A stretch of DNA of 64,000 bases, taken from positions 7,931,224 to 7,995,223 of the forward strand of contig NZ_JADWYI010000001.1 in NCBI RefSeq assembly GCF_016904885.1, written 5' to 3'. The DNA comes from Archangium primigenium. Lineage in GTDB: Bacteria; Myxococcota; Myxococcia; Myxococcales; Myxococcaceae. A model generated the notes under the pieces. It saw nothing but the letters and a program-made list of their open reading frames with translations. It had not been told where the DNA came from and made no database searches. Of the stretch, positions 33,677 through 50,081 are shown piece by piece. Numbering within the stretch: the stretch's first letter is position 1; each line of letters starts with the position of its first letter. A program made the position numbers and the translations under genes.

Positions 33677-34621
33677 CTACGGGGGGATGGGGAGCCGGGA
33701 CGCCGCGTCGCGCAGGGTCACCACGTCGAAGTCCCGCCGGAGCCAGCTGAAGAGCGCGCGCAGCCGCTCGAGCTTGGTGGCCACGGGCACGCGCAGGTCA
33801 CGCTGCTGACGCACGAGCGCGGCGGGGATGCCGTCGTCCGCGTCGAGCACGTCCACCGCGTGCAGCTCCAGGTTGAAGAAGGGCGTGCCGCGGCAGGCGC
33901 GGTAGGCGGCGTGGACGGCGGCCCAGGGCAGCGTGGTGACGAAGGTGCCGATGAAGGGCAGGCGCAGGCCGGGCACGAGCGTCAGGGGCAATTCCACCAC
34001 CGGGCCATCGCCCCGCACGTAGGGCTGGGAGGGGTCCGGCCGGTAGGGCTCCGTCGGCGCGAGCAGCACGCGGGGGGAGTCCAGCACGGCGCGCGAGGGC
34101 CGTCCGGACAAGGCCAGGGCCCCCATCACCGCCGCCTTCGCCGCGTAGTAGGGCACGGCGGGAAACGTCGAGGAGCCGTAGCGGTAGCCGCGCTGCACGC
34201 AGACCGAGTACAGGGCGGCGTTGAGCGTGTAGCCCGGCGCGCGAAAGCCCACCGGCCGCGCGCCCGTGGCCGCTTCCAGCACCGCGTCCGCCCGCGCCAG
34301 GTCCTCGTCCATGCGCGCGCAGGGCAGGCGCGTGAGCGCGTAGTCGTGCGAGAAGCTGTGGCTGGCCACCTCCACGCCCGCGGCGTGCGCCTCACCCAGG
34401 GCCCGGGCCGCCCCGGCGTCCGCTTCCACGTCCTCTCCGATGGCGAAGAAGGTCGCCGGCACGCCCACCTCGGCGAACAGCGCGCGCAGGCGGGGCACCG
34501 CCGTGGTGTAGACGAGCCCCCGCGCCCGCGCGTCCAGGAGCGACTCGGGCAGGCCCTGGATGCGGCAGTAGTGCGGCAGCGAGTCCAGGTCGACGGAGAT
34601 GGAGGCGAGCCGCCGTGCCAT
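33677..34621 (-). CDS. Polysaccharide deacetylase family protein
   Basis: Protein of 314 aa, no signal peptide seen. NodB-fold marks are ISVDLDSLPHY (first Asp), TFFAIGEDVE, EVASHSFSHDYALT with the metal pair His-x-x-x-His, and GFRAPGYTLN. The first metal Asp looks like SVDLD. It probably removes N-acetyl groups from a cell-surface or lipid-linked sugar. ATG at 34621 is 11 bp past the glycosyltransferase stop; GAGGCGAGG lies upstream. Third gene of a sugar operon. Confidence 0.85.
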   Translation of the reverse strand: MARRLASISVDLDSLPHYCRIQGLPESLLDARARGLVYTTAVPRLRALFAEVGVPATFFAIGEDVEADAGAARALGEAHAAGVEVASHSFSHDYALTRLPCARMDEDLARADAVLEAATGARPVGFRAPGYTLNAALYSVCVQRGYRYGSSTFPAVPYYAAKAAVMGALALSGRPSRAVLDSPRVLLAPTEPYRPDPSQPYVRGDGPVVELPLTLVPGLRLPFIGTFVTTLPWAAVHAAYRACRGTPFFNLELHAVDVLDADDGIPAALVRQQRDLRVPVATKLERLRALFSWLRRDFDVVTLRDAASRLPIPP

Positions 34622-34632
34622 GGGGCCTCGCC

Positions 34633-35343
34633 TCACGTGCCGCGGATGCGGATGACGTACACGAGCTTGCCCACGTTCTTGAGCACGTTGGGCACGCGCT
34701 TGAAGAGGTGGATGGAGGGCTGGCGCTTCTCGTGGAGGACGATGGGAATCTCCACCACGCGCAGGCCCTGGCGCCAGGCGCGGATGACGAACTCGCTGGC
34801 GAACACGTCCATGTCCACCACGCACTGGCCCACCACGGGCAGCAGCGCCTCGCGCCGGAAGGCCTTGAGGCCGTGGGTGTCCGTGCCCTGGAAGTCCAGC
34901 ACCACCCGCAGCAGCCCGTTGTGCACCCGCGTGGCCAGGCGCCGCACCAGGGGCCGCTGATCCCGTGCGCCCTTGGCCGCCTTGGACCCCACCACCATGT
35001 CCACGCCCTGCTTCTCCAGGAGCGGCAGCGCCGCGTCGTAGAAGCTCAGGTCACACAGGTCGATCTCGTCGCAGAAGACGTAGGTGCCGCGGGCGCGCTG
35101 GATGCCCGCCTTGAGCGCCACGCCGTAGTTGGGCCGCTCCGAGTGGAACCAGCTCAAGCGCGGGTGGCGCGCGCACAGCTCCTCGAGGATGTCCCGCGTG
35201 GCGTCGCGCGAGCCGTTCTCCGCGAAGATGACCTCGTAGTCCCAGCCCCGCGCGTCCAATCCCTGGGTGAGCTCCGCCGCGGCGGAGGGGAGGATGGACG
35301 CCTCGTTGTAGACGGGGATGACGATGGACAGGAACGGGGCCAT
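34633..35343 (-). CDS. Family 2 glycosyltransferase
   Basis: GT-A fold transferase of 236 aa. SIVIPVYNEASIL starts the nucleotide-sugar domain. The acidic FCDEIDL stretch may take the place of the usual DxD. VDMDVFASEFVIRAWRQG is the ED-like acceptor loop, and the tail is basic with HLFKRVPNVLKNVGKLV. No membrane helices, so it is likely a DPMS/DPGS-like enzyme using a polyprenyl phosphate acceptor. It lies 44 bp downstream of the FAD protein gene. Confidence 0.88.
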   Translation of the reverse strand: MAPFLSIVIPVYNEASILPSAAAELTQGLDARGWDYEVIFAENGSRDATRDILEELCARHPRLSWFHSERPNYGVALKAGIQRARGTYVFCDEIDLCDLSFYDAALPLLEKQGVDMVVGSKAAKGARDQRPLVRRLATRVHNGLLRVVLDFQGTDTHGLKAFRREALLPVVGQCVVDMDVFASEFVIRAWRQGLRVVEIPIVLHEKRQPSIHLFKRVPNVLKNVGKLVYVIRIRGT

Positions 35344-35387
35344 GAGCGGCCGGGTGACGTAGCACGCCCCCCCGGCCCCGTCGACCG

Positions 35388-36701
35388 TCAAGCGTTGAGG
35401 CGGCGCGCGCAGGCCCGACCCGCGAGGATGGCGTCCTCCATGGACGAGTACTCCCACTGTCCATAGCGCCCGGCGGTCTGGAGGCCGGCGTGCTCCAGGA
35501 AGCGGAGGATCTCCGCCTTGGCCGCGCCGTAGGCCTCGTCATAGAGGACATAGGCGTGGGGGATTTCCCGGGCCCGGGCGAAGCGCACGTCCTCGGCCGC
35601 GTGCACCATGTTCGCGCGCACCAGGTCCTCCACCGCCAGGGCCTCGGCGCGCTCGCGCGTGAGCTCGCCGTGGTGGCTGAACTCCACGCAGAAGGTGGCG
35701 GTGTCCGGCGGCGCCAGGGGGGCGTAGACGGCCGAGGGCGAGCCGATGCGGTACGAGTGGAACTCGGGCTCGGGCAGGTAGATCCAATGCCAGGGCTGGC
35801 GGTTGGGGCCCCGCGCCGCCACGCATACGTAGGTGACGGTGGTGGCGCGCAGCCGGCCGGCCGCGGCGCGCACCTCGTCGGGCACGCCCGAGGCGCCCTG
35901 GGCCAGCAGCCGCACCAGGCCCGGCAGGGGAATGGAGGAGAGGAGCTGGGCATAGCGCAGCGTGCGCCCGTCGGACAGGGAGACCGCGCGGGCCTTCCAG
36001 TCGATGGCGAGCGGCTCCACGCCCACCTGCAACTCGCCCCCGCGCAGGTGCGCGCGCATGGCGCGCGCGAGGCTCTCGATGCCGCCCTCGCGCGGGTAGA
36101 GGAAGGAGGCGTTGTAGCCCAGGGCATCGCTGCCCACGCCCAGGGCCCCGTCCACCACCTCCTTGAGCGTGGGCCGGGGCACGAAACGGCCCACCCAGGC
36201 GGCGGACATCTCCGAGGGGTCCACCGTCCACAGCTTCTTGTTGTAGGGGAACATGAAGTTCTTGGCGAACCCCTCCCCCATGTAGCGCAGGATGAACTCG
36301 GCGAAGTCGCGCGGCTCGCGCTCGCGCAGCGCCCGGCCCTTCTCCCCGTAGACGGCCTCCACGTAGCCCACCAGGTTCTCCGCCACCACCTCGGGCGGCA
36401 ACCCGTGCGTGTTCACCTGGTAGGGAAAACGGGTGAAGACCCCCCGCGAGAACACGGCCGCCCGGCGCTGGATGGTGACGAGCTGATCCGGCAGCCAGCG
36501 CGTATTCACCAGCTCCTTGATCTCCGGATCCCTCAGGTGCAGCCAGTGCCCGGTGGCATCGAAGAAGCATCCCTCGAGCACCTCGGTCTTGATGAGGCCC
36601 CCGACCCGCTCGGTCTTCTCCAGGAGCACCCAGGGCTGTTGCAGGAAGTGCGCGGCGGACAGTCCGGCGAGGCCCGCTCCGAGGATGACGATGGGTTCCA
36701 T
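35388..36701 (-). CDS. FAD-dependent amine oxidase/UDP-galactopyranose mutase-like protein
   Basis: Protein of 437 aa. FAD-binding IVILGAGLAGLSAAHFL at the N-terminus, then EKTERVGGLIKTEVL and GCFFDATGHWLHL. The FPYNKKLWTVDPSEMSAAWV stretch and the late Arg/Gly region are like UDP-galactopyranose mutase and the related protoporphyrinogen-oxidase superfamily. Together with the GT2 and deacetylase genes it suggests modification of an envelope sugar. ATG at 36701; first gene of a three-gene operon, divergent from the large zinc-ribbon gene across 212 bp. Confidence 0.85.
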   Translation of the reverse strand: MEPIVILGAGLAGLSAAHFLQQPWVLLEKTERVGGLIKTEVLEGCFFDATGHWLHLRDPEIKELVNTRWLPDQLVTIQRRAAVFSRGVFTRFPYQVNTHGLPPEVVAENLVGYVEAVYGEKGRALREREPRDFAEFILRYMGEGFAKNFMFPYNKKLWTVDPSEMSAAWVGRFVPRPTLKEVVDGALGVGSDALGYNASFLYPREGGIESLARAMRAHLRGGELQVGVEPLAIDWKARAVSLSDGRTLRYAQLLSSIPLPGLVRLLAQGASGVPDEVRAAAGRLRATTVTYVCVAARGPNRQPWHWIYLPEPEFHSYRIGSPSAVYAPLAPPDTATFCVEFSHHGELTRERAEALAVEDLVRANMVHAAEDVRFARAREIPHAYVLYDEAYGAAKAEILRFLEHAGLQTAGRYGQWEYSSMEDAILAGRACARRLNA

Positions 36702-36913
36702 GCCCCCCGTCTACCACCTTCACCCGCCCCCCAGGAGGAGTCAGAAACCAGGAGTTCCGGGCCAAAACCGACTCTTGCCCGCCTGCCCTGCCTCCAAACC
36801 GTCGTGGGCGCACGGCGTCGCGTTCTTTGCCGCCTGGACGAGGGCTCGGGTAACCTGCGCCGCGCTGCGGGAGTTCGGACACGTGTGTCCGAGGGCCCCC
36901 GCCGAGGGAACCC

Positions 36914-39900
36914 ATGAAAGTCTCCTGCCCGTCTTGCCAGACGAATTACAACATCGATGACAAGCGGATCCCGCCGGGCGGCGCGAAGCTCAAGTGCGCC
37001 CGGTGCCAGAACACCTTTCCCATCAAGCTGGAGGGCGCGGCGGCTCCCGCGACGCCCGCCGCCATTCCGCTGCCCGGACCGGCCGCCGCGTCCGCGCCCG
37101 CCGCCATTCCCCTGCCGAGCCCCTCGCGTGCTCCAGTGCCCGCGTTCGGCGCCGACGATGATCTGCACCGGCCCGTGGAGGAAGCCACGCGGGTGATGGC
37201 CATTCCGCTGCCCAGCGCGGCCTTCCGCGACAACGCGTCCCCGCCGCCCGCCGGGGGAGCCATTCCCCTGCCCGGCATCGCGGCCCCCGCGCACCAGGCC
37301 ATTCCCTTGCCCGGCGCGAGCGACCCCTACGCCCAGGCCGCGGACCCCTACGCCCAGGCCGGCGACCCCTACGCGGCCGACCCCTACGCCCAGGCTCCCG
37401 AGCACCAGGCCATTCCCCTGCCCGGCGCGAGCGACCCCTACGCCCAGGCGGACGACCCCTACGCCCAGGCCGGCGACCCCTACGCGGCCGACCCCTACGC
37501 CCAGGCTCCCGAGCACCAGGCCATTCCCCTGCCCGGCGCGAGCGACCCCTACGCCCAGGCGGACGACCCCTACGCCCAGGCCGGTGACCCCTACGCGGCC
37601 GACCCCTACGCCCAGGCCCCGATGGACGCCGTGGCCCTGCCGCCTCCGGCCGCCCACGAGGACCCCTACGCCTACGCCGCGGATCCGTTCGGCGCCCAGG
37701 CCCCGATGGATGCCGTCGCCCTGCCCCCGCCCGCCGGAGACGCCTACGCGTACGCGGCCGAGCCCGCCCAGGACGCGGGCTTCGACCTGCCGCCGCCCCA
37801 GCAGCCCGAGGAGTCCTTCGCCTCCGTCCAGGCCGATGACGCCTTCGCCCTGCCTCCGCCCGCGCAGGCCGCCTCCGCCGACGACGCCTTCGCCGTCGAG
37901 GAGGATCCCTTCGCCCTGCCTCCGCCCGCGCAGGCCGCCGCCGACGACGCCTTCGCCGTCGAGGAGGATCCCTTCGCCCTGCCTCCGCCCGCGCAGGCCG
38001 CCGCCGACGACGCCTTCGCCGTCGAGGAGGATCCCTTCGCCCTGCCTCCGCCCCCGGAGGGCGCGGTCGCCGTGGACTTCTCCGATCCCGTGGTGGGCGA
38101 GCCCACGTCCATGGACGTGGGCCTGGACTTCTCCGAGCCGCCGCCCGCCGCGGCCGGGATGACCACGAACGCCCCCGGCTTCGACGACATGGACTTCGGG
38201 AGCCCGGTGGAGGGCGCGTCCATCCCCGACGCCCTGGAGTTCGACCCCACCGCGCCCGTCATGCCCGGGCAGGATGACCTCGAGGTCGACCTGTCCGCCC
38301 CGCTGCCGCCGCCGCCCACCGCGGGCGCCGCGGATGGCCTGGAGATGCTCAGCTTCATCGACGACGCGGCCAAGGACAGTGGCGCCAAGGGCCGAGGCGC
38401 CCAGCAGCGCCGCTACCAGGTGCGCCGTCGCTCGGGCAAGGTGTTCGGCCCGTTCGAGGAGGGCGTGGTCGTCAAGATGCTCGAGGACGGCCAGTTGCTC
38501 GGCAACGAGGACGTGTCCTCGGATGGCGAGGGCTGGGTGCCCATCGGCACGGTGGCGCTCTTCGCCGCGGCCATCCAGAAGCTCATGGAGGGCCCGGGCA
38601 CGCCCGCGGCGGCCGCCGCGCCGCCGCCCGTGGACGCCAAGGCGGGCCCGGCCACGCAGTCCGCCGCCAACGCCGCCGCCAGCGCCGCCAACATGGAGCG
38701 CATCAACCAGTTGTACGGCGGGCGCATGGCCCAGGTCTCCGTGGTGGACACCACCTCGAAGATGGAGATCATCCTGGGCCAGGTGAAGAAGCGCCTGCCC
38801 CTGGTGCTGTCGGTGGCCGCGGGCGTGGCCGTGCTGGGCGTGGGCCTGGGCTTCGGCGCCACGCGCTACGGCGTCTTCGGCATGAAGAAGTTCTTCCCCG
38901 CCCAGGTGAAGTCCGGGGGCGAGCTGGCCGCCAAGGTGGACGCCGCGCACAAGGCGCTGCTCACGGACTCGGTGGAGGGCTACAAGCAGGCGCGGGACCT
39001 GTCGGCCCAGGTACTCAAGGACGACGAGTACCCCGAGGTGCGCGCGCTGCATTGCCAGGCCGTCTTCTACCTGCAGCGCCGCTACGCGGTGTCCCCGGGC
39101 GGCGACGTGTCGACCTGCCGCTCCGAGGAGACCCGCGAGCGCCTGGAGCTCCTGGGCGAGCACAACCTGGAGTACGTGAAGTACCAGGCGGGCGCGGCCC
39201 TGCAGGCGCGCAACGCGCAGGGCGCCCTGCAGGCGCTCAGCAGCGCGCGGGGCCGGGATGACAACAAGGGCGACGTGGAACTCGCGCTGCTGCTGGCCGA
39301 GACCCAGGCGAGCCTCAAGCAGAACGCCGCGGCCATCGCCACGCTCACGGACGTCATCAAGCGCGAGCCCAAGCTGGCCAAGGCCCAGCACGCCCTGGGC
39401 AACCTCTACCAGGCCGAGGGCAAGGCGGACGAGGCCGTGACGGCCTACCAGGCCGCGCTCGACGCGGACGCCACGCACCTCATCTCCTCGGTGGAGCTGG
39501 CCGCGGTGGAGTTGCTGCTGCGCAAGGACGCCCAGAAGGGCCTGGCGGCCGCCGCGCGCGCGCTGGACGAGAAGACCCTCTCGCACATGGGCCCCGCGGA
39601 GCTGTCGCGGGCCCAGACGCTCAAGGGCATCGCGCTCCTGCAGCTCTTCGATCTGCCGGCGGCGGAGAAGGAGCTCCAGGCCGCGCTGGACAAGGATCCG
39701 GAGTCGCTCACCGTCAAGCGCTACCTGGCGCAGGTGCTCCAGGCCGAGCGGCAGTTCGAGAAGGCCCTGCCCCTGTTCCAGGCGGTGGCCAAGGCCGAGC
39801 CGCAGAACATCGACGCGGTGGGCGGCTACATCTCCACGCTGGCGACGCTGGGCAAGGTCGAGGACGCCCAGAAGCAGATCGAGGAGGCCAGCAAGCGCTT

Positions 39901-41224
39901 CCCCGACAACGCCCACATCGAGTACCTCTACGGTCGCATCGACGAGGCGCGCGACAACAACACCTCCGCCGAGCAGCACTACGCCAAGGCGCTCAAGGTG
40001 GACGCGCAGTTCGTCGCGGCCCACGTCGCGATGGGCCGTCTGCACCTGCGCCTGCACCGCCTGGACCAGGCCCGCGCCCAGTTCGAGGAAGCCGCCACCA
40101 AGGCGCCCGACAAGGCCCCGGTGCACGCGGCGCTGGGTGAGCTCGCGCTCGCCGAGAACCACATCGACAAGGCGCAGGAGGAGTTCACGCGCGCCGTCGG
40201 GTTGGATCCCAACCTCGCCGATGCCCACCTGGGCCTGTCGCGCCTGGCGCTGCTCGCCGGGGACGTGACCAAGGCCCGCCAGGAGGTGGACAAGGCCCTG
40301 GAACTGGATGCGCACTCGCTCAAGGGCGGGCGGCTGCAGCGCGGCATCGTGATGTGGCGCCAGGGCGCGCTGGACGAGGCCCTCTCCGAACTGGAGAAGG
40401 CCAAGAAGGAAGAGCCGCGCTCGGTGGGCATCCCCACCATGCTGGGCGCCGTCTACCTCGACAAGGGCATCGCCGTGCGCTCGGAGAAGAAGGAGACCGA
40501 GGCCACCCAGGCCTTCAAGGAGGCCGAGAGCAACCTGATGCTGGCGCTCAAGAGCGAGCCGTCCAACGCCGAGGCGAACTACTACCTCGCCCTGGTCAAG
40601 GGCCGGCGCGGCGAGTTCACCCAGGCCATCGAGAGCATGAAGACCGCCGTGGACCGGGCCTCCAAGCGGGCCGACTACCACTACGCCCTGGGCGTGCTCT
40701 ACCGCGACGCCAAGCTGCCCGCGGAGGCCATCGCCGAGTGGAAGAAGACCGTCACCCTGGACCCCAAGCTGGTGGACGCCTACGAGGCGCTGGGTCAGGC
40801 CTACATCGAGACCAACGCCATCGACGACGCCATTGGCGCCTACCAGTCGGTCATCAAGGCGGACCCCACGCGCACCCGGGCGCTGGCCTCCATCGGCGAC
40901 GCGCACTTCACCGCCATGCACTGGCGTGACGCCGTGAAGTCCTACGAGCAGGCCATCAAGGCCGACCCGAACCTCACCCAGGTCTACTACAAGCTGGGAC
41001 GCGCCTGGAGCGAGCAGAACCAGTACGGCAAGGCCATCGATTTCTACACCAAGGCGCTCGCCAGCGCCCCGGACAACGCCGATGGCTGGTACCACCTGGG
41101 CTACGCCTACAAGGAGAAGGGCAAGAAGAAGGACGCCGTGCGCTCCTTCAAGGAGTACCTCTCGCGCAAGCCCCAGGCCCAGGATCGCAAGGAGATCGAG
41201 GACGAGATCTCCTTCCTGCAGTAG
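36914..41224 (+). CDS. Zinc-ribbon / GYF / transmembrane / TPR giant protein
   Basis: Protein of 1436 aa. Residues 1-36 are an MJ0042 zinc ribbon (Cys5, Cys8, Cys28, Cys31). About 40-490 is a long Pro/Ala/Asp linker with three 37-residue repeats (HQAIPLPGASDPYAQ...), two MDAVALPPPA units and three 21-residue DDAFAVEEDPFALPPPAQAA units. About 495-560 is a GYF_2-type domain (RRSGKVFGPFEEGVVVKM ... GEGWVPIG). One membrane helix lies near 620-650 (LVLSVAAGVAVLGVGLGFG). The remaining ~780 residues are at least 14 TPR repeats, probably periplasmic. The M. xanthus gliding protein GltJ has the same zinc ribbon-linker-GYF-TM head. Function unknown; a polarity or envelope scaffold is likely. Confidence 0.85.
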   Translation: MKVSCPSCQTNYNIDDKRIPPGGAKLKCARCQNTFPIKLEGAAAPATPAAIPLPGPAAASAPAAIPLPSPSRAPVPAFGADDDLHRPVEEATRVMAIPLPSAAFRDNASPPPAGGAIPLPGIAAPAHQAIPLPGASDPYAQAADPYAQAGDPYAADPYAQAPEHQAIPLPGASDPYAQADDPYAQAGDPYAADPYAQAPEHQAIPLPGASDPYAQADDPYAQAGDPYAADPYAQAPMDAVALPPPAAHEDPYAYAADPFGAQAPMDAVALPPPAGDAYAYAAEPAQDAGFDLPPPQQPEESFASVQADDAFALPPPAQAASADDAFAVEEDPFALPPPAQAAADDAFAVEEDPFALPPPAQAAADDAFAVEEDPFALPPPPEGAVAVDFSDPVVGEPTSMDVGLDFSEPPPAAAGMTTNAPGFDDMDFGSPVEGASIPDALEFDPTAPVMPGQDDLEVDLSAPLPPPPTAGAADGLEMLSFIDDAAKDSGAKGRGAQQRRYQVRRRSGKVFGPFEEGVVVKMLEDGQLLGNEDVSSDGEGWVPIGTVALFAAAIQKLMEGPGTPAAAAAPPPVDAKAGPATQSAANAAASAANMERINQLYGGRMAQVSVVDTTSKMEIILGQVKKRLPLVLSVAAGVAVLGVGLGFGATRYGVFGMKKFFPAQVKSGGELAAKVDAAHKALLTDSVEGYKQARDLSAQVLKDDEYPEVRALHCQAVFYLQRRYAVSPGGDVSTCRSEETRERLELLGEHNLEYVKYQAGAALQARNAQGALQALSSARGRDDNKGDVELALLLAETQASLKQNAAAIATLTDVIKREPKLAKAQHALGNLYQAEGKADEAVTAYQAALDADATHLISSVELAAVELLLRKDAQKGLAAAARALDEKTLSHMGPAELSRAQTLKGIALLQLFDLPAAEKELQAALDKDPESLTVKRYLAQVLQAERQFEKALPLFQAVAKAEPQNIDAVGGYISTLATLGKVEDAQKQIEEASKRFPDNAHIEYLYGRIDEARDNNTSAEQHYAKALKVDAQFVAAHVAMGRLHLRLHRLDQARAQFEEAATKAPDKAPVHAALGELALAENHIDKAQEEFTRAVGLDPNLADAHLGLSRLALLAGDVTKARQEVDKALELDAHSLKGGRLQRGIVMWRQGALDEALSELEKAKKEEPRSVGIPTMLGAVYLDKGIAVRSEKKETEATQAFKEAESNLMLALKSEPSNAEANYYLALVKGRRGEFTQAIESMKTAVDRASKRADYHYALGVLYRDAKLPAEAIAEWKKTVTLDPKLVDAYEALGQAYIETNAIDDAIGAYQSVIKADPTRTRALASIGDAHFTAMHWRDAVKSYEQAIKADPNLTQVYYKLGRAWSEQNQYGKAIDFYTKALASAPDNADGWYHLGYAYKEKGKKKDAVRSFKEYLSRKPQAQDRKEIEDEISFLQ
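37292..37624 (+). repeat. Three 111-bp coding direct repeats
   Basis: Copies start at 37292, 37403 and 37514, with almost no differences. Each encodes 37 residues with IPLPGASDPYAQ followed by three further DPY units. They lie inside the linker of the zinc-ribbon protein and keep frame, so copy number could vary between strains without breaking the gene. Confidence 0.9.
37880..38068 (+). repeat. Three 63-bp coding direct repeats
   Basis: Copies start at 37880, 37943 and 38006 and encode DDAFAVEEDPFALPPPAQAA with small changes; a partial copy precedes. Proline-rich ALPPP motifs of this kind are the sort of ligand GYF domains bind, and a GYF-type domain lies about 120 residues downstream in the same protein. 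Confidence 0.88.
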
Positions 41225-41314: not shown

Positions 41315-42595
41315 ATGCTGGATCTCAAGTACGTCGCGCAGAATTTCGATGCGGTCGTCGCCCGGTTGCAGTCCCGGGGCGGCAGCCTGGACCTCGGCCC
41401 CTTCAAGAGCCTCGTGTCGGAACGGCGCGACCTCTACGTGGCCATGGAGTCACTCTCCGCGCGCCGCAACGCCGCCAACGAGGAGATGAAGCGCAAGGCG
41501 AAGGAGGATCCCGCCGCGCTCGACGCCCTGCGCGGGGAAATGCGCGGCGTCTCCCAGTCCATCAAGGAGAAGGAGGCGCGGCTCAAGGAGGTGGAGGAGG
41601 AGCTCAGCCGCATCCTGCTCGTCATCCCCAACGTCCCCCACGAGTCCGTGCCCACCGGCGGGGGCGCCGAGGGCAACGTGCAGACGCGCATCTGGGGGGA
41701 CAAGCCCCAGCTGCCCTTCACCCCCAAGCAGCACTTCGAGCTGGGCGAGAAGCTGGGCATGCTGGACTTCGAGCGGGCCGCCAAGGTGTCCGGCTCGCGC
41801 TTCACCTTCTACAAGGGCGCCCTGGCCCGGCTCGAGCGCGCGCTCGTCACCTTCATGATCGACGTGCACACCCAGAAGGGTTACGTCGAGCTCCTGCCGC
41901 CCTACCTCGTGCTGCGCGAGGCGATGATGGGCACCGGCCAGCTGCCCAAGTTCGAGGACGACGTCTTCAAGACGCTGGGCGAGCCCGAGCGCTTCCTCAT
42001 CCCCACCGCGGAGGTGCCCGTCACCAACTACCACGCGGATGAAATCCTCGAGGGCGAGGCCCTGCCGGTGCGCTACTGCGCGTTCAGCCCCAGCTTCCGC
42101 GCCGAGGCGGGCGCGGCGGGCCGGGACACGCGCGGCCTCATCCGCCAGCACCAGTTCCACAAGGTGGAGCTGGTGAAGTTCGCCACGCCCGACTCCAGCC
42201 TCGAGGAGCTGGAGAAGATGACGGATGACGCCTGCGACATCCTGCGCCGGCTGGGCCTGCACCACCGGGTGATGCTCCTGTGCACCGGGGACATGGGCTT
42301 CGCCTCGCGCAAGACGTACGACATCGAGGTCTGGCTGCCGGGCCAGGCGGCCTACCGGGAGATCTCCTCCTGCTCGGACTGCGGCGACTTCCAGGCCCGC
42401 CGGGCGAAAATCCGCTTCCGGGCCCAGAAGGGCGACAAGCCCCAGCTCTTGCACACCCTCAACGGCAGTGGCCTGGCCGTGGGCCGCACCACCATCGCCA
42501 TCCTGGAGAACTACCAGCGCGAGGACGGCACCGTCGCCATCCCCGAGGTGCTGGTGCCGTACATGGGGGGCCTCAAAGAGCTCAAGCCGCTCTAA
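41315..42595 (+). CDS. serS: Seryl-tRNA synthetase
   Basis: Class II aminoacyl-tRNA synthetase of 426 aa; charges tRNA-Ser. The first ~110 residues form the antiparallel coiled-coil arm that grips the long variable arm of tRNA-Ser. Motif 2 is [20 protein letters not shown], and motif 3 is [27 protein letters not shown] is the serine-binding loop. ATG at 41315 ([14 protein letters not shown]) is the conserved start although no strong ribosome site precedes it. The gene is followed within 1.2 kb by four tRNA-Ser genes. Confidence 0.97.
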
Positions 42596-47060: not shown

Positions 47061-48596
47061 CTACCGGGTGACGCGGTAGCCCAGGGGCAGCACCACCGAC
47101 ACCGACTCGCCCTGGTGCGCGGGAAACCGCAGCCGCTTGAGCCGCGCCTCCAGGCACCGCGCCAGCGGCCGCCGCGCCAGCGGCCCCTCCATCACCGGCT
47201 CCGCCTTGCCCGAGGCATGGATGGTGAAGCGCACGCGCACGTCGCCCTCGTCCGCGGGCAGGTCCGCCTTGTGCCGCTCGAAGCACGAGGAGACCCGGGC
47301 CCGGTGGCGCGCCAGCACCCGCTGGATGTCCGCGGTCTCCAGGGACACCCGTGTGACCGCGTGCATCTCCTCCGCAGACAGCGTCTCCACGGCGGGGGCC
47401 ACGGGAGCGCTCACCGGCGCCCCGGCGACGACCCGCTGGGGCTCCTTGGGTGGAGCGGCCACCGGCGGCCCCGGGGCCTCCTCCTCGACCCCCCACCGCC
47501 CCGCCCAGAGGCCCCCTCCGAGCAGCAGGGCGAGGCTCGCGGCGGCCAGCACGCGCCGTCCCCGCCGGCCCCGCGCCCCGTCGTCCATCCGAGCGCCGAG
47601 GGCCGAGGGAGAGCGCTCCACGAAGGGCGCGGCCGCCGTCTTCTCCTGGTAGCGCCGCTCGCCCACGCTGGCGCGCAGGTACTCGGCGAGCCGGGCCCGC
47701 GAGGGCTCCACGGGCTCTCGGGCCAGCAGGGCCTCCAGCGCCTCGGCGAACGCGGCGGCGGTGGCGTGACGCCGCGAGGGCTCCACCGCCATCGCCTGGA
47801 GGACCACGGCCTCCAGGTCCGCGGACAGCTCGGGCCGCAGGGCGCGCGGCGCGGCGCACTGGCCCAGGCGCAGGGCCTCGAGCACCTCCGCTTCCCGGGG
47901 CCGGGCGAAGGGCCGCACATGGGTGAGGGCCTCGTAGAGGCTCACGCCCAGGGCGAAGACGTCCGCGCGGCGATCCACCCGGCCGCCCCGCGCCTGCTCG
48001 GGCGCCATGTAGACGGACTTGCCCAGCACCGGCCCCGGCCGCCCCGAGGCGTCCCCCGGCCCCACCTGCGCCACCCCGAAGTCCAGCACCTTCACCCAGC
48101 CCGAGTACGTCACGTAGAGGTTGGACGGCGACACGTCCCGGTGGACGATGTCCAGCTCATGCGCGTGGTGCAGCCCCCGGGCGGCGTCGGCGAGCACCCG
48201 GAGCACCAGGGGGATGGGCACGTACTCGCCCCGATGGCTCGCCATGCGCACCAGGGTGGAGAAGTCCTCGCCCGGCAGGAACTCCATGCACAGGTAGGGA
48301 CGCTCCTCGCTCGTGCCCTGGTCGAACACCCGCACCAGGTGCGGATGCGTCAGCCGGGCCGCCACCTGGGCCTCCTGCTGGAACATCCGCACCAGTTCCG
48401 GCTGCCCCAACAGTCCCTCGCGCATCCGCTTGATGACAAGGTCGCGGCCCGCCCCCTCCCCGCCCGCGCGCCGGGCGAGGAAGATCTCCGCCATGCCGCC
48501 CTCGGCCAGCTTGCGCAGCAGCACGTAGGGCCCGAAGGGCCGACGCTGCCACGGACCAGGACCCGGCAGGTCCCCGAGGGAGGAAGAAGCCGTCAT
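47061..48596 (-). CDS. Membrane Ser/Thr kinase with periplasmic TonB-like C-terminus
   Basis: Protein of 511 aa. Kinase domain about 22-290: LAEGGMAEIF, Lys56, HRDVSPSN (152-159), DFGVAQ (172-177), KSVYMAPEQ. One membrane helix about 349-366. Periplasmic part of ~140 residues ends in a TonB-like / AgmX-type domain (VRVRFTIHASGKAEPV ... RCLEARLKRLRFPAHQG). Such domains usually act in energy coupling or binding of outer-envelope proteins. ATG at 48596 is the only good start. It lies between recR and mglB on the opposite strand. Confidence 0.92.
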   Translation of the reverse strand: MTASSSLGDLPGPGPWQRRPFGPYVLLRKLAEGGMAEIFLARRAGGEGAGRDLVIKRMREGLLGQPELVRMFQQEAQVAARLTHPHLVRVFDQGTSEERPYLCMEFLPGEDFSTLVRMASHRGEYVPIPLVLRVLADAARGLHHAHELDIVHRDVSPSNLYVTYSGWVKVLDFGVAQVGPGDASGRPGPVLGKSVYMAPEQARGGRVDRRADVFALGVSLYEALTHVRPFARPREAEVLEALRLGQCAAPRALRPELSADLEAVVLQAMAVEPSRRHATAAAFAEALEALLAREPVEPSRARLAEYLRASVGERRYQEKTAAAPFVERSPSALGARMDDGARGRRGRRVLAAASLALLLGGGLWAGRWGVEEEAPGPPVAAPPKEPQRVVAGAPVSAPVAPAVETLSAEEMHAVTRVSLETADIQRVLARHRARVSSCFERHKADLPADEGDVRVRFTIHASGKAEPVMEGPLARRPLARCLEARLKRLRFPAHQGESVSVVLPLGYRVTR

Positions 48597-49002: not shown

Positions 49003-49482
49003 ATGGGCACGCAATTGGTGATGTACGAAGAGGAGTTCACCAAGATCAACGCGGTTTGCGACCGGCTGACCAAGGACGCGAACGCGAAGGTGGTGTTCCT
49101 CGTCGACAAGAACGGGCAGCTCATCTCCTCCGCGGGGCAGACGCAGAACATCGACACCACCTCACTGGCCTCGCTGACGGCCGGTAACGTGGCGGCGATG
49201 GGCGGCCTCGCGAAGTTGATTGGCGAGAACGAGTTCCCCCATCAGTTCCACGAAGGGGCCAGGGACTCGCTCTACATGACCATCGTGGGCAGCCGGGTGG
49301 TGCTCGTGGTCATCTTCGACAACCGCACGAGCCTCGGTCTGGTTCGCCTGCGCATCAAGAAGGCCAGTGACGAGCTGACCAAGATCTTCGAGAGCCTCGT
49401 GAAGAAGACCGATGGTCCCGGGGTCGGGTCTCCGTTCGCCGAGATCTCCGACGACGATATCGACAACCTCTTCAGCGAGTAA
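49003..49482 (+). CDS. mglB: MglB, Roadblock/LC7 GTPase-activating protein
   Basis: Protein of 159 aa, same length as M. xanthus MglB. It is the GAP for MglA and marks the lagging cell pole during gliding. The Roadblock fold is clear (VFLVDKNGQLISSAG ... SLYMTIVGSRVVLVVIFD), and the acidic tail AEISDDDIDNLFSE is conserved. AGGAG lies upstream of ATG 49003. mglA starts 11 bp after its stop, so the pair is an operon. Confidence 0.97.
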   Translation: MGTQLVMYEEEFTKINAVCDRLTKDANAKVVFLVDKNGQLISSAGQTQNIDTTSLASLTAGNVAAMGGLAKLIGENEFPHQFHEGARDSLYMTIVGSRVVLVVIFDNRTSLGLVRLRIKKASDELTKIFESLVKKTDGPGVGSPFAEISDDDIDNLFSE

Positions 49483-49493
49483 TCCGAGAAGCC

Positions 49494-50081
49494 ATGTCCT
49501 TCATCAACTACTCGTCTCGCGAAATCAACTGCAAGATCGTCTACTACGGTCCCGGTCTGTGCGGGAAGACGACGAACCTGCAGTACATCTACAACAAGAC
49601 CGCCGCGGAGACGAAGGGCAAGCTCATCTCGCTCTCGACCGAGACGGATCGCACGCTCTTCTTCGACTTCCTGCCGCTGTCGCTCGGGGAGATCCGCGGC
49701 TTCAAGACGCGCTTCCACCTGTACACGGTGCCGGGCCAGGTCTTCTACGACGCCAGCCGCAAGCTCATCCTCAAGGGGGTGGACGGCGTGGTGTTCGTGG
49801 CCGACAGCCAGATCGAGCGCATGGAGGCCAACATGGAATCGTTGGAGAACCTGCGCATCAACCTGGCCGAGCAGGGCTACGACCTGAACAAGCTCCCGTA
49901 CGTCATCCAGTACAACAAGCGGGACCTGCCCAACGCCGTGTCGCCCGAGGAGATGCGCAAGGCGCTCAACCAGCGCAACATCCCCGAGTACCAGGCGGTG
50001 GCCCCCACGGGCGTGGGCGTGTTCGACACGCTCAAGGCCGTGGCCAAGCTCGTGCTCACCGAGCTCAAGAAGGGCGGCTAG
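49494..50081 (+). CDS. mglA: MglA, Ras-like polarity GTPase
   Basis: Protein of 195 aa, as in M. xanthus. In its GTP form it sets the leading pole and drives both gliding and type IV pilus motility. P-loop GPGLCGKTTN, switch region with TVPGQVFYD (Thr in place of the usual Asp), and base-binding NKRD are all present. The sequence looks almost unchanged from M. xanthus as recalled. Genes for other motility proteins are not adjacent; a GltJ-like protein is encoded 8 kb upstream. Confidence 0.98.
   Translation: MSFINYSSREINCKIVYYGPGLCGKTTNLQYIYNKTAAETKGKLISLSTETDRTLFFDFLPLSLGEIRGFKTRFHLYTVPGQVFYDASRKLILKGVDGVVFVADSQIERMEANMESLENLRINLAEQGYDLNKLPYVIQYNKRDLPNAVSPEEMRKALNQRNIPEYQAVAPTGVGVFDTLKAVAKLVLTELKKGG

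Follow-up and report, generated by a model that had tools for sequence, protein, structure and literature searches.

The 1436-aa protein encoded at 36914-41224 (+) in Archangium primigenium, here called the giant, is best explained as an envelope scaffold, a reading to which we give a probability of about one half. It would belong to a bitopic inner-membrane family that combines a cytosolic docking head with a periplasmic TPR solenoid and is possibly chaperone-linked. The giant's family has no functional name, and no description of the protein was found in the literature searched, though it is conserved across much of Myxococcota. Positions without a prefix refer to the window, the 64,000-nucleotide stretch C1:7931224-7995223 of the 9.49-Mb genome, and those prefixed C1 refer to the genome itself.

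The giant begins with a zinc ribbon (PF13717/MJ0042, residues 1-38, 36914..37027), which gives a PF13717 match over residues 1-36 in the domain profile search (E 1e-14) and has the cysteine spacing C5-X2-C8-X19-C28-X2-C31. A proline-rich, probably disordered linker with seven IPLP[G/S] motifs and xALPPP/DPYA repeats (37028..38323) separates it from a GYF-fold domain (38411..38587, residues ~500-558, core VRRRSGKVFGPF...ML.DGQLLGNEDVS.D). The GYF domain is weak by sequence (PF14237, E 0.014, under the cut-off) and was therefore examined by structure. Its AF2 model, built from 31 orthologous segments, has a pLDDT of ~95 across the domain and matches Smy2, GIGYF1/2 and the GltJ GYF domain 7z3c in the PDB with a Foldseek probability near 1, as it does chains of the chloroplast TIC complex; in VIA-align, 7z3c has a Z of 5.9, level with the other GYF matches. 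The domain thus has the GYF fold with its GP motif (AF2, Foldseek/VIA) and is counted among the GYF domains. The C-terminal 760 residues consist of TPRs (38921..41221; TPR_2, E 8e-50), and the AF2 model of residues 641-1436 has a mean pLDDT of 92.7 and ~45 helices, which corresponds to ~22 repeats. A fold search with the TPR model returned generic TPR solenoids only (OGT, Ctr9, IFT-A, Ski3), without a functional hint. The order of zinc ribbon, proline-rich repeat linker, GYF-type domain, membrane helix and TPRs described in the initial annotation is thereby borne out. An antisense 1520-aa ORF (36533-41095, -) was rejected as a high-GC mirror frame, the conservation of domain proteins being found in the + frame only.

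A single membrane helix is predicted at residues 630-648 (38801..38857). Lysine and arginine are commoner on its N-terminal side in 76 of the 101 family members and rarer in 10 (means 4.1 versus 2.7), and the flanking charges are close to balanced in the window protein itself. By the positive-inside rule, this family-wide excess makes an N-in/C-out orientation likely, so that, on the evidence of charge, the zinc ribbon/GYF half is likely cytosolic and the TPR half likely periplasmic. Given the usual roles of these domains, the ribbon, the PLPG array and the GYF domain may act as multivalent docking sites for cytosolic partners, and the TPR solenoid may hold an envelope complex in the periplasm.

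The linker contains two tandem arrays, a 111-bp (37-aa) unit repeated 3.1 times at 37282..37622 (+) and a 63-bp (21-aa) unit repeated 3.5 times at 37842..38064 (+), each 96% identical; as judged from the sequence, both are recent. The length of this coding sequence, with arrays of such identity, probably varies among strains. The IPLP[G/S] motifs start at residues 51, 65, 97, 117, 130, 167 and 204, and [AVI]PLP[GAS] motifs number seven in the linker versus 0.09 expected from shuffled sequences. Ten long-linker relatives tested have 3-19 copies of PLPG-type motifs. A DNA-level genome scan for A[IV]PLPG gave four clustered matches in the giant and ten scattered singletons elsewhere (the reversed control pattern gave 29 matches); the sole cluster in the genome thus lies in the giant, to which the array is specific. 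Proline-rich peptides are the usual ligands of GYF domains, and PLPG is therefore a candidate for binding by one; the Smy2 entry 3fma, matched by the GYF model, is a complex of a GYF domain with a proline-rich peptide. By this analogy the PLPG motifs are likely ligands of some GYF domain, either the giant's own or that of another protein.

A search with a 321-aa segment from the GYF domain to the first TPRs found orthologs in 25 of the 30 relatives, each of these genomes having a single copy, with 33-71% identity over the GYF/TM/first-TPR segment and open frames of 1028-1690 aa; the ribbon is kept in all of those whose N-terminus is on the contig. A pattern scan of genome contigs gave 80 loci, nearly all with Myxococcota or older Deltaproteobacteria names, the nearest named relatives being Archangium species. 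One locus titled Comamonas sp. (L099, BNCN01000011.1) has the full Myxococcus-type arrangement of giant, serS and neighbours and is probably mislabelled or contaminated. The overall architecture is common to 101 loci, with ribbon and GYF domain widely retained. Among Myxococcaceae the ribbon is near-invariant and the best-conserved part of the protein: CPSCQTNYNIDDKRIPPGGAKLKCARC is identical among Archangium-, Myxococcus- and Pyxidicoccus-type members that are only about half identical over the entire protein. The Lujinxingia-type members (L137, L151) begin at the GYF domain and lack the ribbon, with GYF domain and TPRs retained, which makes it unlikely that the ribbon carries the core function.

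The gene for seryl-tRNA synthetase, serS (41315..42595, +), lies directly downstream of the giant, and no terminator-like site was found between the two in the window. The linkage is kept across several lineages: of the 79 loci with sufficient sequence beyond the giant (a few contigs enter this count twice), 62 have serS as the next gene on the same strand, 0-159 bp away, among them lineages whose proteins are 28-32% identical. From this adjacency the two genes are probably co-expressed, and the position directly upstream of serS indirectly suggests constitutive, growth-linked expression of the giant and not a motility regulon. In locus L126, a gene for a cNMP-binding/Crp-type regulator (L126:3473-4336) abuts or overlaps the giant start, upstream of giant and serS.

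On the other side, the giant is divergent from a flavin amine oxidase-like gene (35388..36701, -) and, in the same upstream group, from a glycosyltransferase 2 gene (34633-35457) and a polysaccharide deacetylase gene (33677-34825). These three are conserved neighbours in Myxococcaceae and some order-level relatives, less deeply so than serS, and known exopolysaccharide systems include TPR scaffolds in the periplasm; the TPRs might then help to make or export a polysaccharide that these genes produce. This explanation seems quite improbable, since the sugar genes, being divergent, are on a separate transcript from the giant and are missing where the serS or dnaK linkage persists, and since the ten neighbours scanned include no gene for a polymerase, flippase or exporter.

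In eight distant loci (L137, L139, L140, L150, L151, L153, L154, L157), the gene directly downstream is of the DUF4388/DnaJ/TPR type. The products are homologs of one DUF4388 + TPR protein, in several of which a J domain is detected, and dnaK comes next in six of the eight. These downstream proteins are only ~26-34% identical to that of L139, so the gene order has persisted through long divergence. In L133, the second gene downstream of the giant is a convergent DUF4388-DnaJ-TPR gene; grpE, dnaK and dnaJ are divergent and upstream in L126, as is dnaK in L146. Chaperone neighbours are absent in L129, L131 and L144, the other inspected members of the L126 lineage, and that part of the evidence is therefore moderate; the L126 genes are the ordinary heat-shock operon, and their linkage could be chance synteny. 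The surroundings of the giant in Myxococcaceae, the window included, showed no dnaK or DnaJ gene, nor did those in most serS-linked lineages. At L139:16600-18144, and also in L137, L151 and L157, the dnaK placed after giant and DUF4388-type gene encodes only ~515 aa, ends short of the end of the Hsp70 profile and seems to lack the C-terminal lid.

A link to a DnaJ-type protein independent of synteny comes from the GYF domain. In hhalign, the family GYF profile matches the GYF domain of a GYF-DUF4388-DnaJ-TPR protein of the same genome (C1:8769681-8772011, L009:3682-6012) with 96% probability (E 5e-9, 30% identity), versus 51% (E 1.5e-4) for GltJ GYF domains. The former is the closest GYF domain found for the giant's, and both proteins end in TPRs; unlike the giant, this protein has a J domain and DUF4388 and lacks the zinc ribbon. 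The J-protein of the distant lineages has a receiver-like N-terminus, not a GYF domain. Another GYF-chaperone-type combination may be seen at C1:2291830-2293119 (-) (L076), where a 430-aa frame has a GYF domain followed, by eye, by J-like and PilZ-like regions.

For the envelope scaffold, it is more speculatively proposed that the cytosolic partner is a GYF/J-domain protein bringing DnaK to the envelope, because distant members of the family precede a DUF4388-DnaJ-TPR gene and dnaK, and because the closest GYF domain in the same genome sits on a GYF-DUF4388-DnaJ-TPR protein. Drawn from genome context and one profile match, the chaperone link is the better-supported lead when compared with control by MglA. 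A fuller version, to which we give only a low probability, is an undescribed Myxococcota transmembrane chaperone-docking system made of the GYF-TM-TPR protein, the DUF4388-DnaJ-TPR protein and DnaK. In Myxococcaceae the GYF domain of the J-protein would read the IPLPG array, concentrating DnaK at the inner membrane beneath the periplasmic TPR scaffold.

The initial annotation had compared the giant with GltJ and proposed another MglA-linked receptor, noting mglBA 8 kb away. The genes are real, mglB at 49003-49482 (+) and mglA at 49494-50081 (+), and lie 7.8 kb downstream of the giant. A Ser/Thr protein kinase gene (47061-48596, -) lies in between. Nine family-f1 genomes with long contigs have the giant and mglBA 8-17 kb apart; in genomes G018, G021 and G025 they fall on different contigs, and in G027 a single contig carries them at a distance of 3.7 Mb. 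No mglA was found within 10 kb in the flanks of any of the 80 named giant loci. The mglBA neighbourhood is thus family-level synteny, gone in order-level relatives. MglA is near-universal in the phylum, and GltJ-like proteins are near-universal too; the co-occurrence of MglA with the giant is uninformative for that reason, and co-occurrence with MglA or GltJ-like proteins was dropped as a discriminator. The genome also encodes, at C1:3890244-3890816 (-), another GTPase of MglA type with 53% identity to MglA and counterparts in most relatives.

GltJ/AgmX of Myxococcus xanthus resembles the giant in its N-terminal MJ0042-type zinc ribbon, linker, GYF domain, single membrane helix and C-terminal part past the membrane. 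The GltJ of the same genome (C1:7160395-7162431, -) has a ribbon, a GYF domain, a TM and a C-terminal domain. The structural correspondence expected for the ribbon and the GYF domain was found, the giant ribbon matching the GltJ zinc ribbon 7zok (E 7e-6) and the GYF model matching 7z3c as given above. The GltJ-type (TonB-like) C-terminal domain is absent from the giant and TPRs stand in its place, also as originally described. Six ribbons exceed the cut-off in this genome, and that of the giant is identical to the GltJ ribbon at 11 of 38 positions, versus 15/38 for the ribbon-TM-TPR paralog C1:4050616 and for C1:2612838, 13/38 for C1:6262696 and 12/38 for C1:2720520. The paralog at C1:4050616-4053789 (+, L071) has a zinc ribbon, a proline-rich linker, TPRs and, by eye, one TM; unlike the giant, it lacks the GYF domain and has other linker motifs and a second Cys cluster before the TM. 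At residue 35, F occurs in 49 of the 52 distinct family ribbons versus I/V/L in all 26 GltJ-type ribbons, and where GltJ-type ribbons have I/V/L35 and, mostly, K29-K30 and G32, the giant has F35, A29-R30 and Q32. The MglA-binding motif of GltJ reportedly lies beside the zinc ribbon, and the conserved GltJ linker motif was examined for this reason: E[IL]G.[AV]FD..[LF] occurs between ribbon and GYF domain in 23 of 29 GltJ-type proteins, whereas all 101 giant family members lack it. The giant also differs from GltJ/AgmX in its long PLPG-repeat linker, the lack of an EIGAVFDQVL-type motif, a location outside a glt cluster, and a GYF domain of the same fold that appears nearer another subfamily by profile comparison. 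Taken together, the ribbon identities, F35, the missing linker motif and the GYF profile indicate that the two heads share domain types, not the GltJ-specific version, and the giant is not in the GltJ family in the strict sense. The shared head thus stands at the level of module types, a ribbon and a GYF domain before a single TM, and fails at the level of the GltJ version.

GltJ is itself an MglA effector (PMC12288465). The giant could be a second one, its ribbon/linker binding MglA-GTP at the leading pole or focal adhesions and its TPR solenoid replacing the TonB-like output of GltJ, given that it has the module types of GltJ, with both head domains matching solved GltJ structures, and lies near mglBA in the closer Myxococcaceae. 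We consider this unlikely: the ribbon and linker differences just described and the affinities of the GYF domain count against it, the mglBA linkage is seen in one family only, and the family extends to lineages in which the GltJ motif is missing from the zinc-ribbon proteins. The MglA reading comes down to domain types recurrent in these bacteria and to synteny local to one family, and the step from a shared module to an MglA link is unsupported. GltI/AgmK and SgmX are, like the giant, large TPR proteins, known from the myxobacterial motility field. GltI has 4132 aa and is encoded in the glt G1 cluster (PMC3169522).

The best PDB match of the giant ribbon is 2nb9 (E 2.5e-6), which, judging by its residue numbering, we take for that of ZitP. 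In ZitP of Caulobacter crescentus, PopZ binding is determined by W35 together with a basic patch (K18, R24, R27, R34), and the AgmX (GltJ) ribbon, with I35, shows no polar localisation in Caulobacter (PMC5182065). ZitP is also a bitopic ribbon protein and controls pili and motility (PMC5182063). The giant, likewise bitopic with an N-terminal ribbon of the same family, might then be a polarity organiser of this kind, its ribbon attaching it to a polar or cytoskeletal hub distinct from MglA, with the periplasmic half organising machinery at the pole, for instance type IV pili or secretion. The family keeps the aromatic residue at 35 and basic residues at 18 and 27 (F35, R18 and K27 in the giant). 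The giant has A24 and T34 in place of R24 and R34 of the basic patch and, unlike ZitP, has a GYF domain and TPRs and is far larger; with the ribbon also absent in the Lujinxingia-type members, such a role appears doubtful.

Whichever reading holds, heads made of a zinc ribbon and a GYF domain recur as a docking format in myxobacteria, and such a head alone is therefore no sign of MglA control. Binding to MglA, if it occurs, would give the polarity network an additional output through periplasmic TPRs; a chaperone link, if real, would make the giant an unusual route of DnaK/DnaJ to the envelope.
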